A DNA stretch of 10,233 bases from Bacteroidota bacterium (GTDB taxonomy: Bacteria; Bacteroidota; Rhodothermia; Rhodothermales; Rubricoccaceae): positions 1 to 10,233 of the forward strand of contig JADFLK010000043.1 of NCBI GenBank assembly GCA_022564455.1. The letters are read 5' to 3'. Positions 237-7,759 of the stretch are shown piece after piece. The position numbers and the translations under genes are program-made. The notes under the pieces are model-generated. The model worked only from the letters and a program-made list of their open reading frames with translations, did no database searches and was not told where the DNA came from. Each line of letters starts with the position of its first letter. Position 1 is the first letter of the stretch.

Positions 237-3113
237 TTACGGTCGCCTGAGCCAAGTCAAGAATTCGTTGCCAAGAGCCTGGTCTCCCTGAATCGCATCA
301 GAGCCGAAAACGGAGTCCGCCGTGGCGCGCCCGTAGGCGTAAAACCGGCCAATACCGATCTGTGGCGACACCCAATACGCGGCCAGGTCGGGCCGGACGA
401 ACTGGTTGTTCGAGCCGAGGATCGGCGCCCCCAGCGTAACGCGTGCACGCACGCCCATGCCGTCGAGCGGGTGGATGATATTGTAGCGGTACGGCCGCTG
501 GTGCTTCCAGGCGAAGCCGAGTTGGAAGTCTGTGCGGTAGCCGTCCTCCGGCAGAGGCAATTCACCGCCGGCCGTTTCGAGGTCTACGTTGTCGGCGAGG
601 TCAAAAGGCTCAGCGTAGGCATAACGGATGCGTGCGCCGGCCAGGATCGTAGTGTAGGGCGTGTCGGTGAGGTCCAGCGGCAGCGTGGCCGAGAGGTCGC
701 CGCCGGTGAGGTTCTCTACCAGGAGCGCGTTGCCGTAAAAACTGCTCGGGCTCGGGAAACGGTACAGGTCGAGCCTGAGGCTCGGTGCAAGCGTGTTGTT
801 GGTGTACGATAGTAAGAGGAACGATTTTTCTATGAACTGTGTCACCGAGACCCCGGCAAGCACGAACAGTTGGTGCTTGTTGAGGGGCTCCAGCCAGATA
901 GAGTTGGCGAAGAAGCCGTAGTCGTTGTTCGCCGGGTCGGCGTACGGAAGGGGCAGGGTAATCGCGTGCGTGAGGTTGGCGAACGAGTTGTACGAATACC
1001 GTTCGGTGATGAGCGACGGATCGGGTTCGATGGCGAAAGGAATCTCATTCGGCGGGCGGTGCGTGGTCCAGTCGCCGTAGCCGGGGGGAATGGTGAGGGG
1101 TTGGGAGGCATCCACGGTGGGCCGCCGCGCCGCGTCCACCACGTAGACGCGCTCGCGGCGCTTGGTCTCGGAGGACACGAGTACGAGGCGTCCGGCCGGG
1201 TGGAGGGAATCCGCCGGCAGCCAATCGTGGACCGTCGCGCCGTCGTAGAGGAAGGTGACACGTTGTTCGGAGGACGGGGGACGGGGGACGGAGGACAGTC
1301 GTTCATCTGTAGAATCAGAGGGTGGTCGGTATATGAGCGTTTCTGCCGAGCCTCCTGTGTGCTCCTGGGCCTCATCAGGCTTCTCAGTTTCGGGGGTGTC
1401 CTCCTCTGCTGTCCGCGGTCTGCCCTCCGCAGACTCCTGACTCCTGACTCCTGACTCCTGACCTCCGTCCTCTGTTATCGGCGAAGCCATCTCCCACTCC
1501 TTGCCAGAGACCACACCATCCGGTCCGGCCTCACCCGGCAACCCCACTACAAAAACGTTGGGTGCGTCGTCCCGCAACGACGTAAACGCCATCGCGTCAC
1601 CGTTGGGACTCCACACAGGCAAACGGCTGTCGTTGGCCTCGATGGACAGGTCGCTCCCAACCCGTACAGGCGTCGGCGCGCCGAGGGCCACATCAATGGT
1701 CATCAGGCTGCGGTTGCCCTCCGCATCGAACACGGTTATCGCAATCTGGTCGCCGCGCGGACTCCACCGTGCCGAGGTGATCTGAACATCACCCTCAAAG
1801 TGCGTGAGGGGCGTTTCCTCCAGTGTTTCGAGATCGAGGAGAAACACGTTAGCCGTTCCACCGGTTGCGCTGCTGGCCGTACCCACAAAGGCCAGCGTCC
1901 GCCCCTCCGGGCCAAAGCTCGGGCTGAATGCTCTTCGGCTGTGCGTAAGCCGCGTCCGCCGTCCCGTCTCTACCTCCACCATGTACAGGTCGTTCACCAG
2001 CGATCCGTGATCGCCGCGAATCCGCCGCGTGTAGGCGATGTGGCTACCGTCGGGGCTCCAGCTTATCGGGCCTTGCAGGCTGCCCTCGGCCAGCACCCGC
2101 ACGTTGCGCGTGCTGTCTGCGCCGGGGTTATTCATTACAAAAAGCCGCCGCACGGGCCGCGCCACCGACGTAAGGACCATCGCCGCGATGAGCGTCGTGT
2201 CGGGGCTAAAATCGATACTGTAGATGTACTGGCCCGGCAGGCGAAGCGGGTCCACGTGGAGCGAATCGAGGCGCTCCATCTGCCCCGCTATCGTGTTGTA
2301 GTACACGTTGGCATTCTTCCGCCACTCCTCCTGAAACTCCTTGTACGGTATTCCGACGACCTCCTCGAAAGCCGTGTATAAGTCGTGGACGTGCGCCAGG
2401 CCAAGCAGCGTGGACGTGCGGTGTTCGAGGATCTGGGTGATGGTGGAGTCGCCGTAGGTCTCCGCGAGGTAGCGCAGTTGGCTGTTGCCGAGAGCGTACA
2501 GGAGTCGTCCATTCTGGTTCGAGTTGCCGTCCGACGTGCTCAGCCGATCCTCAAAAATTGCAGTGCGTAGCCAGCGGTCGCCGCGCTGGGCGTCCCACTT
2601 CTCGGTTTCGTATTGCGCGAGGCCCTCCACCCACCACGCCGGATAGGCCGTGGCAATGAGGTTTTGTAGCAGCCCCAGGCTCGACCGGACGGCGCGGAAG
2701 TGGAAAATGTGGGCGAGCTCGTGCCCGATCACCTTTCGCAGCCACTTGACCTCGCCCGTCCAGATCGTGGCCGTGCTGTTGGCATTCACCCAGATGTGCG
2801 TGAAGCCCGCCGAACCAACGTCATACGCCGAGCCGTTGGCAATCTCGTCCTCGTCGGAGAGGTAGATGCGGATTTTATCATCGAACGTGACGCCGCCGAA
2901 GTTCTCGGAAAGCGTGGCGTACGTGGCCTCAGCGATAGCCGCGGCCTGCGCCTCTATGCCCGTGAGGTGCGCCGGATACATGATCTCGAAGTGCTCCGTC
3001 TCGGCCACCTGCCAGTCAAGCTCCGGGTGATTGCGGCCGTTTAGGCCCGAATAGCCCTGCCCCACAGCCGGAGCAGCAATCAGCAAGGTGAACGCGAAGA
3101 GGATGGGGCGCAT
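237..3113 (-). CDS. Secreted gluzincin-like / TolB beta-propeller / outer-membrane barrel protein, apparently 3'-truncated
   Basis: The 958-residue product starts at ATG with a signal peptide (residues 1-19, hydrophobic core FAFTLLIAAPAVG). Residues about 35-290 resemble the peptidase MA-like gluzincins: HELAH at 131-135 gives two zinc-ligand histidines and the general-base glutamate, and WWVEGLAQ supplies E163 as the likely third ligand. Residues about 290-690 carry TolB/WD40-like propeller blades (WSPDG at 352-356, WSPRG near 450, WSPNG at 501-505). From about 705 alternating hydrophobic/polar strands look like an Omp85/BamA-type barrel. Proteins of this architecture are outer-membrane and presumed envelope hydrolases or assembly factors; the substrate is unknown. 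Two oddities stand out. A low-complexity linker at about 549-614 is encoded by heptanucleotide repeats. The barrel ends abruptly at ALGNEFLTWLRRP, with no terminal beta-strand signal or final aromatic residue, so the 3' end is probably lost or disrupted. The catalytic residues are present. The family assignment rests on motifs only. Confidence 0.85.
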   Translation of the reverse strand: MRPILFAFTLLIAAPAVGQGYSGLNGRNHPELDWQVAETEHFEIMYPAHLTGIEAQAAAIAEATYATLSENFGGVTFDDKIRIYLSDEDEIANGSAYDVGSAGFTHIWVNANSTATIWTGEVKWLRKVIGHELAHIFHFRAVRSSLGLLQNLIATAYPAWWVEGLAQYETEKWDAQRGDRWLRTAIFEDRLSTSDGNSNQNGRLLYALGNSQLRYLAETYGDSTITQILEHRTSTLLGLAHVHDLYTAFEEVVGIPYKEFQEEWRKNANVYYNTIAGQMERLDSLHVDPLRLPGQYIYSIDFSPDTTLIAAMVLTSVARPVRRLFVMNNPGADSTRNVRVLAEGSLQGPISWSPDGSHIAYTRRIRGDHGSLVNDLYMVEVETGRRTRLTHSRRAFSPSFGPEGRTLAFVGTASSATGGTANVFLLDLETLEETPLTHFEGDVQITSARWSPRGDQIAITVFDAEGNRSLMTIDVALGAPTPVRVGSDLSIEANDSRLPVWSPNGDAMAFTSLRDDAPNVFVVGLPGEAGPDGVVSGKEWEMASPITEDGGQESGVRSQESAEGRPRTAEEDTPETEKPDEAQEHTGGSAETLIYRPPSDSTDERLSSVPRPPSSEQRVTFLYDGATVHDWLPADSLHPAGRLVLVSSETKRRERVYVVDAARRPTVDASQPLTIPPGYGDWTTHRPPNEIPFAIEPDPSLITERYSYNSFANLTHAITLPLPYADPANNDYGFFANSIWLEPLNKHQLFVLAGVSVTQFIEKSFLLLSYTNNTLAPSLRLDLYRFPSPSSFYGNALLVENLTGGDLSATLPLDLTDTPYTTILAGARIRYAYAEPFDLADNVDLETAGGELPLPEDGYRTDFQLGFAWKHQRPYRYNIIHPLDGMGVRARVTLGAPILGSNNQFVRPDLAAYWVSPQIGIGRFYAYGRATADSVFGSDAIQGDQALGNEFLTWLRRP
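1269..1470. repeat. Heptanucleotide inverted-arm element inside the barrel gene
   Basis: The left arm has four in-phase heptamers at 1269-1296: GGAGGAC on the outside and GGGGGAC for the two middle copies. The right arm has four perfect ACTCCTG copies at 1433-1460, whose other strand (AGGAGTC-type) fits the same purine-rich heptamer consensus RGRRGWC. The arms are therefore inverted. GGACGGAGG at 1286-1294 is the exact reverse complement of CCTCCGTCC at 1462-1470. The whole element stays in frame in the minus-strand gene and encodes the linker at residues about 549-614, including the 7-residue pattern SGVRSQE. Confidence 0.85.
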
Positions 3114-3194
3114 CAGGAAAGGAAATGTTGGGTGGAAACTAGACCCCTGGAACCGGGGTGGATGGTAGAAGAAAGGGCAAAGGGTAACAGAGGC

Positions 3195-7130: not shown

Positions 7131-7621
7131 TGGTCATCGGCGTCATCTCGGATACCCACGGTTTCTTCCATCCAGCAATCCCCGAGGCATTTTCGGAGGT
7201 CGATCTGATTCTCCACGCAGGCGACGTAGGCCCGGTGGCCGTATTGGAAGCGCTGGAAGCCATTGCGCCCGTGCGCGGCGTGTACGGCAACGTGGACGGT
7301 CCTCCAATTCGCGGCCACTTTCCAGAGACCGAGCGGTTCGAACTCGAAGGCGTTCGGTTTGTGATGCACCACATCGGTGGCCACCCCAACCGGTGGGGGC
7401 GGGGGGTGGGTACGATGCTTCGCGCCGAGCGGCCAGACGTTTTTATTTGCGGGCACAGTCACATTCTGAGGATCGAGCGCGTGCCGGAGCTGGGCGGGAT
7501 GCTGTACCTGAATCCGGGCGCAGCAGGCCGGCAAGGACTCCACCAGGTAAAAACGTGCGTGCGGCTGCACGTAAGCGATGGCGCGGCCACGCAGGCCGAG
7601 GTTGTGCATCTCGATGGTTAA
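7130..7621 (+). CDS. YfcE/MJ0936-type metallophosphoesterase
   Basis: Starting at the ATG that shares its A with the preceding TGA, the product is 163 residues, the usual size for this small phosphodiesterase family. Calcineurin-like motifs appear in order: SDTHG (D8, H10), HAGDVG (D32), YGNVDG (N54), a histidine-rich segment VMHHIGGHP (H80/H81) and GHSH (H109, H111). It closes with the family-typical LNPGAAGR turn. All dinuclear metal ligands appear intact. The protein has no signal peptide and should be a cytoplasmic Mn-type phosphodiesterase; the natural substrate is unclear in the family. The frame is open upstream to 6818, but that part overlaps the previous gene and lacks family features. 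The final codons GGT TAA already form the first repeat unit of the following inverted element. Confidence 0.92.
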   Translation: MVIGVISDTHGFFHPAIPEAFSEVDLILHAGDVGPVAVLEALEAIAPVRGVYGNVDGPPIRGHFPETERFELEGVRFVMHHIGGHPNRWGRGVGTMLRAERPDVFICGHSHILRIERVPELGGMLYLNPGAAGRQGLHQVKTCVRLHVSDGAATQAEVVHLDG

Positions 7622-7759
7622 AGGTTGAAGGTTAGCAGATTGCAATATTCGTGAAGCCGAAAACGTGCGTTGAGATGGGTTCGTGCATAACCTGCAACCT
7701 TCCAACCTGTAACCTTCTAACCTGAAATCTTCCAATCTGTAACCTGTAACCTTTCAACC
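7616..7759. repeat. 144-bp element with 27-nt imperfect terminal inverted repeats and 7/8-nt tandem units
   Basis: The left end (7616-7642) carries GGTT units every 7 nt; the right end (7733-7759) carries AACC units. The left end pairs with the reverse complement of the right end at 24 positions, with two mismatches and one single-base bulge on each side. From about 7688 the right arm alternates 7- and 8-nt spacing between AACC cores, giving a roughly 15-nt unit AACCTGYAACCTTCY in about three copies. The element includes the stop codon of the phosphoesterase gene and ends 13 nt before the next start codon. It could act as a transcript terminator or stabiliser, or be a small repeat-type insertion. 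Confidence 0.82.

Follow-up and report, generated by a model that had tools for sequence, protein, structure and literature searches.

The 10,233-nt contig JADFLK010000043.1 of a Bacteroidota bacterium (Rhodothermales, Rubricoccaceae; GenBank assembly GCA_022564455.1), referred to below in its full length as the window, carries short tandem repeats that face each other in opposite orientation, and thus raises the question of whether such repeats are maintained as the complementary arms of a hairpin or as a fixed direction of the DNA strand. The original prediction had described four elements composed of 7- to 9-nt tandem units in two arms, one arm being the complement of the other. In the analysis described here, strand direction, not hairpin pairing, seemed to be what is kept: neighboring heptanucleotide arrays were found to run G-rich and then C-rich whatever the layout of the adjacent genes, whereas the two arms of one site matched no better than arms combined from different sites.

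In a scan requiring at least 19 of 28 lag-7 matches, the window contained four period-7 segments covering 259 nt, whereas 200 first-order Markov controls averaged 0.01 segments and 0.245 nt, with 49 nt at most. The same scan returned 0 nt at lags 5, 8, 9, 10, and 11, and 38 nt at lag 6. Elements 1, 2, and 4 were clear, with units of about 7 nt reported by Tandem Repeats Finder (TRF), while element 3 proved weak, and the fourfold description was accordingly upheld only in part. The elements are listed below together with comparisons to the nearest sampled genome, G001, a metagenome-assembled genome (MAG, 88% complete) showing 86-89% identity to the window across four blocks; stretches of the genomes compared are denoted by L numbers.

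1269..1297, plus strand: element 1, left arm, G-rich heptamers GGACGGA/GGACGGG (TRF 1268-1296, 4.1 copies)
1298..1430: element 1, core, a coding stretch that separates the arms and has a counterpart in the relative L032
1431..1477, minus strand: element 1, right arm, C-rich on the plus strand, GACTCCT x4.4 and then GTCCTCC-type units (TRF 1432-1462)
3188..3253, plus strand: element 2, left arm, G-rich mosaic of GTCAGGG, GACAGAG, GACGGAG, and then GATATGGG (by eye)
3333..3428, minus strand: element 2, right arm, C-rich on the plus strand, AAATCCG/AAATCCC, about 12 units (TRF 3334-3415, 11.7 copies)
5323..5401: element 3, weak repeat of period 8-9 between the stop at 5320 and the start at 5406
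7616..7634, plus strand: element 4, left arm, GGTTAAA/GGTTGAA (TRF score 31), beginning at the stop codon of gene 7130-7621
7655..7687: element 4, core, GTTGAGATGGGTTYGTG, conserved between the window and G001 (comparison by eye of the window with L022 and L033)
7688..7768, minus strand: element 4, right arm, AACCTTC/AACCTGT units extending to the gene start at 7773 (TRF 7688-7752)

Abundance, order, and spread of the arrays

The sample of G001 comprised 60 stretches (775 kb of 3.1 Mb), of which 30 were chosen by contig number, with contigs that match the window arms avoided in the final ten, and 30 because a similarity search matched there; gene edges in these stretches were those of a longest-ORF (open reading frame) caller, not of annotated genes. 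Within the 30 stretches taken by number (372 kb), the scan detected 41 lag-7 and 28 lag-14 arrays, as compared with 0-4 arrays at lags 5, 8, 10, 11, and 13, and with one array in each of three Markov runs. The original prediction had been staked in part on an excess over shuffled-type sequence, and this excess was strong in both the window and G001. Altogether 92 sites were recognized in G001, 7 of which were called in-ORF and 12 lay at contig edges, the remainder being located between ORFs. The commonest heptamers were ATTTCGG, ATTTGGG, ATATCGG, AAGGGTG, and ACGGAGG; the top unit has no GGG run, and none of the five conforms to the unit type GGGNATC with its G-quadruplex (G4)-forming tracts. 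The G-rich strand was C-poor (A.251, C.105, G.386, T.258), and inspection of the listed arrays by eye indicated that the heptamer drifts in sequence along an arm. Different heptamers at different loci had been predicted correctly, and they often differed between the two arms of one locus as well. The suggested likeness to the cyanobacterial short tandemly repeated repetitive (STRR) sequences, which are degenerate heptanucleotide tandem repeats, was also right.

Among oppositely skewed neighboring arrays at most 300 nt apart in the 60 stretches, 36 ran G-rich then C-rich (G-to-C) and a single one ran C-to-G, and the stretches chosen by number alone gave 11 and 0, respectively, at either 300 or 600 nt. 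The lone exception within 300 nt (L174) has a 98-codon open frame between its two arrays and may join two separate sites. Sites with the G-to-C order were observed between convergent genes (5), divergent genes (4), leftward tandem genes (7, plus one G-C-G site), and rightward tandem genes (8), in addition to contig edges (7) and in-ORF calls (4), and sites with C-to-G order only were found in none of the layouts. Array-bearing spacers (n=55) showed a skew of 0.240 on the left and -0.122 on the right, versus 0.021 and -0.034 in array-free spacers (n=242). In the window, the scan showed the G-rich array preceding the C-rich one in elements 1 and 2, and this order was visible by eye in element 4 (GGTTGAA, then AACCTTC). 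Among other Bacteroidota, 7 of 8 loci were G-to-C. In Calidithermus, a member of Deinococcota, together with other genomes of its phylum, 15 loci were G-to-C and one was C-to-G (p=0.0005); many of the loci from other lineages were pulled by one-family patterns, a manner of picking that should not favor an order. The gaps between arms were at most 20 nt at 16 of 36 junctions, and gaps retained some period-7 signal (0.357 vs. 0.252 in array-free spacers).

The distribution of the arrays among genomes was patchy, as judged from the small number of genomes matching one search pattern and from the low array counts in G002-G005. The pattern GGATWTS x3 was matched in 10 of 395 genomes of the phylum, with 98 matches in G001 and 0 for the reversed control there, and period-7 arrays numbered 3 in 103 kb of G003, 1 in 67 kb of G004, and 1 in 60 kb of G005. 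In G002, which belongs to the same genus as G001, 0 arrays were present in the 208 kb sampled versus 41 in 372 kb of G001, and gain or loss of arrays within a genus may hence be fast. The pattern GGACRGA x3, with up to two mismatches allowed, was matched in only one (G249) of 12 other genomes. In the phylum of Calidithermus, 7 of 111 genomes carried the search pattern. Calidithermus itself gave 275 matches to this pattern and 102 to its reversed control, the latter probably because the reversed pattern is a similar heptamer. Calidithermus chliarophilus (G413; L093, L233-L237) was seen to hold many arrays of the GTCGATA, GCGTTTT/GCGTCTT, and CGTACGT types, mostly in the same convergent order. 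In a distant genome of the Bacteroidota (G114), the reversed pattern STWTAGG x3, which covers TTTAGGG telomere-type units, was matched 30 times, and these matches may represent a separate heptamer system or foreign DNA. A plasmid BLAST search with two arrays as queries gave no match, although the low-complexity filter may hide such matches, and a comparison with Rfam families gave 0 matches at gathering score.

Pairing, gene edges, and mobility

To assess the complementarity of the two arms, each left arm was aligned locally with the reverse complement of a right arm, either its own or a swapped one, and the best score was taken. For 36 neighboring G-rich/C-rich pairs of G001, the average score was 17.6 with own and 18.7 with swapped partners (p=0.69), and the own partner was the best match of all in only 2 of the 36; the 11 pairs from stretches chosen by number behaved likewise (17.0 own vs. 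17.65 swapped, p=0.56). Predicted RNA duplex energies of the 36 pairs were -29.9 kcal/mol for own and -30.4 kcal/mol for swapped arms (p=0.60). A shuffled C-rich arm paired less well (-24.6 kcal/mol), and therefore any two heptamer arms pair to some extent. In the Deinococcota set, which was mostly picked by pattern, own arms scored below swapped ones (12.8 vs. 22.1), a deficit that one-family picking can cause; six Calidithermus pairs not picked by pattern gave a lower-tail p of 0.049. Arm covariation, the other comparison on which the original prediction had been staked, was therefore rejected over the 36 pairs on the basis of both alignment and duplex energy. The claim that one arm is the complement of the other did not generalize in the window either, where the inverted match extended over 18 nt at 83% in element 1 and 16 nt at 94% in element 2, and arms often differed in heptamer, as in element 1 (GGACGGA on the left, mostly GACTCCT on the right).

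The fold of element 4 exceeded those of shuffled sequences in both the window (z -3.5) and G001 (z -4.2). Element 2 gave z -3.2 in the window versus -0.18 in G001, and the folds of elements 1 and 3 were no better than shuffles (z -0.31 and -1.42). Terminator-like sites in the window numbered 10, versus 8.0 expected. As to the individual spacer elements, the left arm of element 2 comprised a period-7 segment at 3188-3228, a TRF repeat at 3192-3210, and the inverted match at 3237-3252, and its right arm was the target of most of the non-orthologous G001 match rows. Element 3 yielded no segment in the lag-7, -8, and -9 scans at threshold 19; it was marked by a looser lag-8 scan (threshold 16) of its stretch alone, and TRF reported a 9-mer only (5380-5400, 2.3 copies, score 35). 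At the orthologous place, G001 has about four ACGTAATC-type 8-mer units. The right arm of element 4 contained a period-7 segment (7731-7768) at threshold 18, while the left arm failed the scan; the left arm is longer in G001 (L022), and by eye both arms are present in L033 and hardly in L032. The inter-arm stretch of element 4 (window 7655-7690) is conserved in G001 and partly in L033. The core is a possible promoter of the downstream SpoIIE gene; it was not listed in a sigma-70 scan. At the orthologous places of elements 1, 2, and 4, G001 was shown to have arrays as well, but with other units and other unit numbers.

The genes of the window, identified by Pfam unless stated otherwise, are as follows.

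237-3113, minus strand: PD40/DPPIV_N protein gene, with element 1 inside
3440-5320: ORF for a LamG protein with a Por secretion tail
5406-6092: metallo-beta-lactamase-fold protein
6171-7130: ORF without a Pfam match
7130-7621, plus strand: metallophosphoesterase gene (Metallophos_2, 3.5e-32), with its 3' end inside element 4
7773-9485, plus strand: GAF-SpoIIE gene (SpoIIE, 9.3e-49), the start of which follows element 4
9482-10231, minus strand: protein with a weak Por-tail match

In the G001 ortholog of window position 7126/7127, about 500 nt of extra sequence (L031:8636-9135) separates genes that abut in the window, comprising a second copy of the metallophosphoesterase gene start and a CCCCGCAGTACTGCGGGG palindrome.

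Three elements had been placed in spacers, which was borne out for elements 2, 3, and 4, and element 1 was found to lie in frame within gene 237-3113, where its translation reads EDGGQESGVRSQESAEG on one side of the coding core and ERLSSVPRPPSSEQRV on the other. In G001, the orthologous element carries GGACGGA units at the left-arm place and GTCCTCC units at the right-arm place. Its length is 228 nt versus 207 nt in the window, the difference of 21 nt corresponding to three heptamers, and the frame is open in both. In the L032 ortholog the core is kept and no period-7 array is present, as compared by eye and by scan. In L033, the left-arm place is occupied by a G-rich array built from still different units (GGGAGAT type). 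Among the seven in-ORF calls of G001, L098 is the ortholog of element 1, and the other six were tested with Pfam. L111, L126, L166, and L170 were read as over-extended starts, since the first domain appears only downstream of the array, and L116 gave no Pfam domain. In the remaining case (L163:3029-4225, minus strand), a YegS-type lipid kinase gene, an in-frame G-to-C array lies between two domain matches and encodes a repeated 7-residue motif around NPKSEI.

The position of arrays relative to genes was examined at stop codons. Among first arrays starting -30 to +20 nt from the stop codon, the sense strand was G-rich in 24 and C-rich in 1, the ratio being 7:8 at 21-60 nt and 5:14 at 61-200 nt; over the same three classes, the stretches chosen by number gave 6:0, 1:4, and 3:4, and Calidithermus gave 5:0, 1:1, and 0:1. 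Arrays overlapping the stop were G-rich in 17 cases and C-rich in 0, and those beginning after the stop were G-rich in 7 and C-rich in 1. The rule that the G-rich strand begins near a gene edge likely holds, matching the report on Xanthomonas discussed below, but is less certain than the G-to-C order.

A seeding of arrays from the coding end was considered and rejected. Over 36 arms, 5-mers shared with the final 24 coding nt were more numerous for the own arm than for others (2.03 vs. 1.13, p=0.003), but ORFs extending into an array and terminating in it would give the same signal, and L032 has no array at the place of element 4 despite a similar coding end. The arrays were also not recognized as mobile elements. 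Across 33 sites, the ends of which are known only roughly, most flank columns held less than 0.3 bit (highest 0.54), neither a shared end motif nor terminal inverted repeats were found, and the longest flank repeat averaged 4.36 nt versus 4.11 nt in permutations (p=0.063), giving no clear target-site duplication. As for enzymes that might make the arrays, Ku was identified in 3 of 16 genomes (G249, G311, and G393) and the reverse transcriptase domain RVT_1 in 6 of 16 (among them G413, G249, G311, and also G002); neither was detected in G001, and Ku was not detected in G413 either, with gaps in the MAGs being a possible cause. Neither distribution was tied to that of the arrays, subject to the same gaps, and both candidates were set aside.

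Growth of the arrays and competing explanations

What has to be explained is a 7-nt period, a convergent order in every gene layout, arms that do not match, and an ortholog length difference of three units. The mechanism that we regard as most likely is a slippage-like extension of DNA that would proceed in steps of 7 nt and with a fixed polarity of the strand, in which DNA synthesis would repeatedly slip back by about 7 nt. Each array would tend to run with its G-rich, C-poor strand 5' to 3' away from a nearby gene edge, and arrays on both sides of a spacer would converge, giving the G-rich then C-rich order that resembles an inverted repeat with no pairing needed. The conservation of a core in elements 1 and 4 suggests that the two arms of a site can arise separately. 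Taken as a whole, the reading that polar arrays of multiple heptamer families grow in spacers, and occasionally in genes, by such slipping is advanced tentatively, as having somewhat less than an even chance.

Several observations weigh against this reading. When neighbors up to 600 nt apart are counted, the ratio becomes 37 G-to-C versus 3 C-to-G; the other Bacteroidota loci (7 G-to-C and one C-to-G, the latter a 21-nt segment at an array edge) are by themselves not significant (p=0.07); the skew is absent overall from nine array-bearing spacers of Calidithermus (0.006, -0.042); and Trichormus plasmid A (350 kb), where some similar heptamer units such as GTCAGGA were noticed, has 12 single-polarity sites, one C-to-G site, and zero G-to-C sites. 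Single arrays show no significant preference for the nearest gene edge (G-rich, 17 left and 9 right; C-rich, 12 left and 10 right; p=0.56). The counts at stop codons are affected by a bias, since ORFs entering a G-rich array end there, stop triplets being present at 0.039 per nt on the G strand versus 0.013 on the C strand. Unit likeness from the inner to the outer end of 116 arms went up in 57 and down in 37 (p=0.14), revealing no significant gradient of the kind expected of a growing end, and no candidate enzyme is left, because Ku was not found in either G001 or G413, nor RVT_1 in G001. That elements 1 and 4 retain conserved sequence between their arms also counts on this side, and growth itself is deduced from the sequences of one close ortholog set. 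The weakened stop-codon evidence leaves the standing of slippage unchanged, since this reading rests mainly on the G-to-C order and the arm test.

Selection at the level of transcripts is a less probable but still sizeable contender. Arrays would arise in both directions but would survive, through G4, R-loop, or translation effects, where they produce a C-rich leader at the 5' end or a G-rich trailer at the 3' end, which likewise yields G-then-C in every layout; G4 effects on expression are discussed by Rehm et al. (PMC4692102). The order kept in all gene layouts and the sense-strand G-richness in 24 of 25 arrays at stop codons, the latter subject to the stop-triplet bias, speak for it. Such selection, however, needs two separate rules for the 5' and 3' ends, the commonest heptamer of G001 has no GGG run, and element 1 (window and G001) and the YegS-type gene keep the order without a gene edge, although these are only two sites. 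Improbable, on our estimate, is a telomere-like activity adding G-rich heptamers to 3' ends at breaks, the capped ends then being joined into a G-then-C scar resembling a head-to-head telomere fusion. It predicts the fixed convergent polarity and the unrelated arms, both of which are seen, and it accords with the many short gaps at junctions and with the C-poor G strand, but not with the conserved cores of elements 1 and 4, the absence of a gradient of unit likeness, or the failure to find Ku and RVT_1 in the genomes named above. A slightly bolder form of the idea, to which we give a still smaller chance, is that bacteria of at least two phyla have an undescribed DNA-end extension activity adding C-poor, slowly drifting heptamers at 3' ends facing spacer breaks; if it were true, a spacer would carry a telomere-like head-to-head array pair.

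Elements whose arms are kept complementary for a functional RNA or DNA stem-loop, for example in termination, are very unlikely to account for the arrays. Element 4 does fold beyond shuffles, with arms of one family in the window, in G001, and by eye in L033, and element 2 of the window folds comparably; over the 36 pairs, however, pairing was not borne out as a general rule, only two pairs having their own partner as best match, and the fold of element 2 is lost in G001, those of elements 1 and 3 are unremarkable, and terminator-like sites scarcely exceed expectation. Least credible of all is a mobile repeat spread by a transposase, of the type of miniature inverted-repeat transposable elements (MITEs) or of mobile doublets (REPINs) of repetitive extragenic palindromic (REP) sequences. 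Dispersed places of G001 do resemble the window arms, with at least 58 match rows, four of which are orthologous blocks (40 of 163 candidates scored), but the likeness is confined to the heptamers, and neither a common terminal motif nor a clearly duplicated flank accompanies it. The likeness to REP/MITE hairpins that had been noted at first was not supported by end motif, target-site duplication, or arm covariation. With direction kept but sequence and pairing not, the palindrome would be a by-product, and it is the strand polarity for which an explanation must account.

Comparison with known heptanucleotide repeats

The paired-arm design, which the original prediction had regarded as a distinct repeat class, exists in the form of convergent strand polarity, but this design and its polarity are already known for one unit type. 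According to Rehm et al. 2015 (PMC4692102), GGGAATC arrays form 70 and 75 convergent pairs in two Xanthomonas genomes, and the G strand starts near the 5' neighboring ORF (mean 28 nt vs. 160 nt) whatever the direction of the ORF. The same text describes no leading- or lagging-strand preference and a length variation between close species, mentions Calothrix heptanucleotides and Nostoc GGGGA(C/T)T arrays with only a few pairs, cites an older suggestion that the 7-nt step stems from the contact length of DNA polymerase, and notes that heptamers are over-represented in bacterial spacers, with the cause not settled. The arrays of Xanthomonas and Nostoc described there share with those reported here the tandem heptamers, the mostly intergenic location, and the convergent neighbors; the earlier work dealt with a single unit type in each genome and interpreted the pairs as potential stem-loops or G4, whereas here many unit types occur per genome, the arms are unmatched, and the commonest unit lacks a GGG run.

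Other systems resemble the arrays in part. In the P6b stem of the Nostoc trnL intron (Class I TDNGATT, Class II NNTGAGT; PMC4476775), heptamers occupy both sides of the stem like the two arms here, and units are gained, lost, and replaced by another family at one place in both systems; the P6b sides pair inside a group I intron, whereas pairing is not kept here, except perhaps in element 4. The TAACTGA repeats of Beggiatoaceae (PMC4679880) are likewise intergenic heptamer direct repeats with a patchy spread over phyla including some Bacteroidetes, but represent one sequence, mostly forward and just upstream of starts, with one inverted case. The element of Geobacter metallireducens (PMC2700814) also consists of tandem heptamers, four GGGACCG in 49 intergenic or intragenic places; unlike the arrays here, it has one unit type and a fixed unit number, and is a predicted regulatory element.

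In the literature covered, namely titles and abstract openings with few subscription papers, neither multi-family convergent arrays with unmatched arms nor such arrays in Rhodothermales or Calidithermus were described. What is new relative to the Xanthomonas system of PMC4692102 is the many heptamer families, the unmatched arms, and the other lineages. A direction kept without sequence or pairing separates two ideas that are inseparable in the single-unit case of Xanthomonas, and makes the convergent order a plain prediction for any genome with heptamer arrays.

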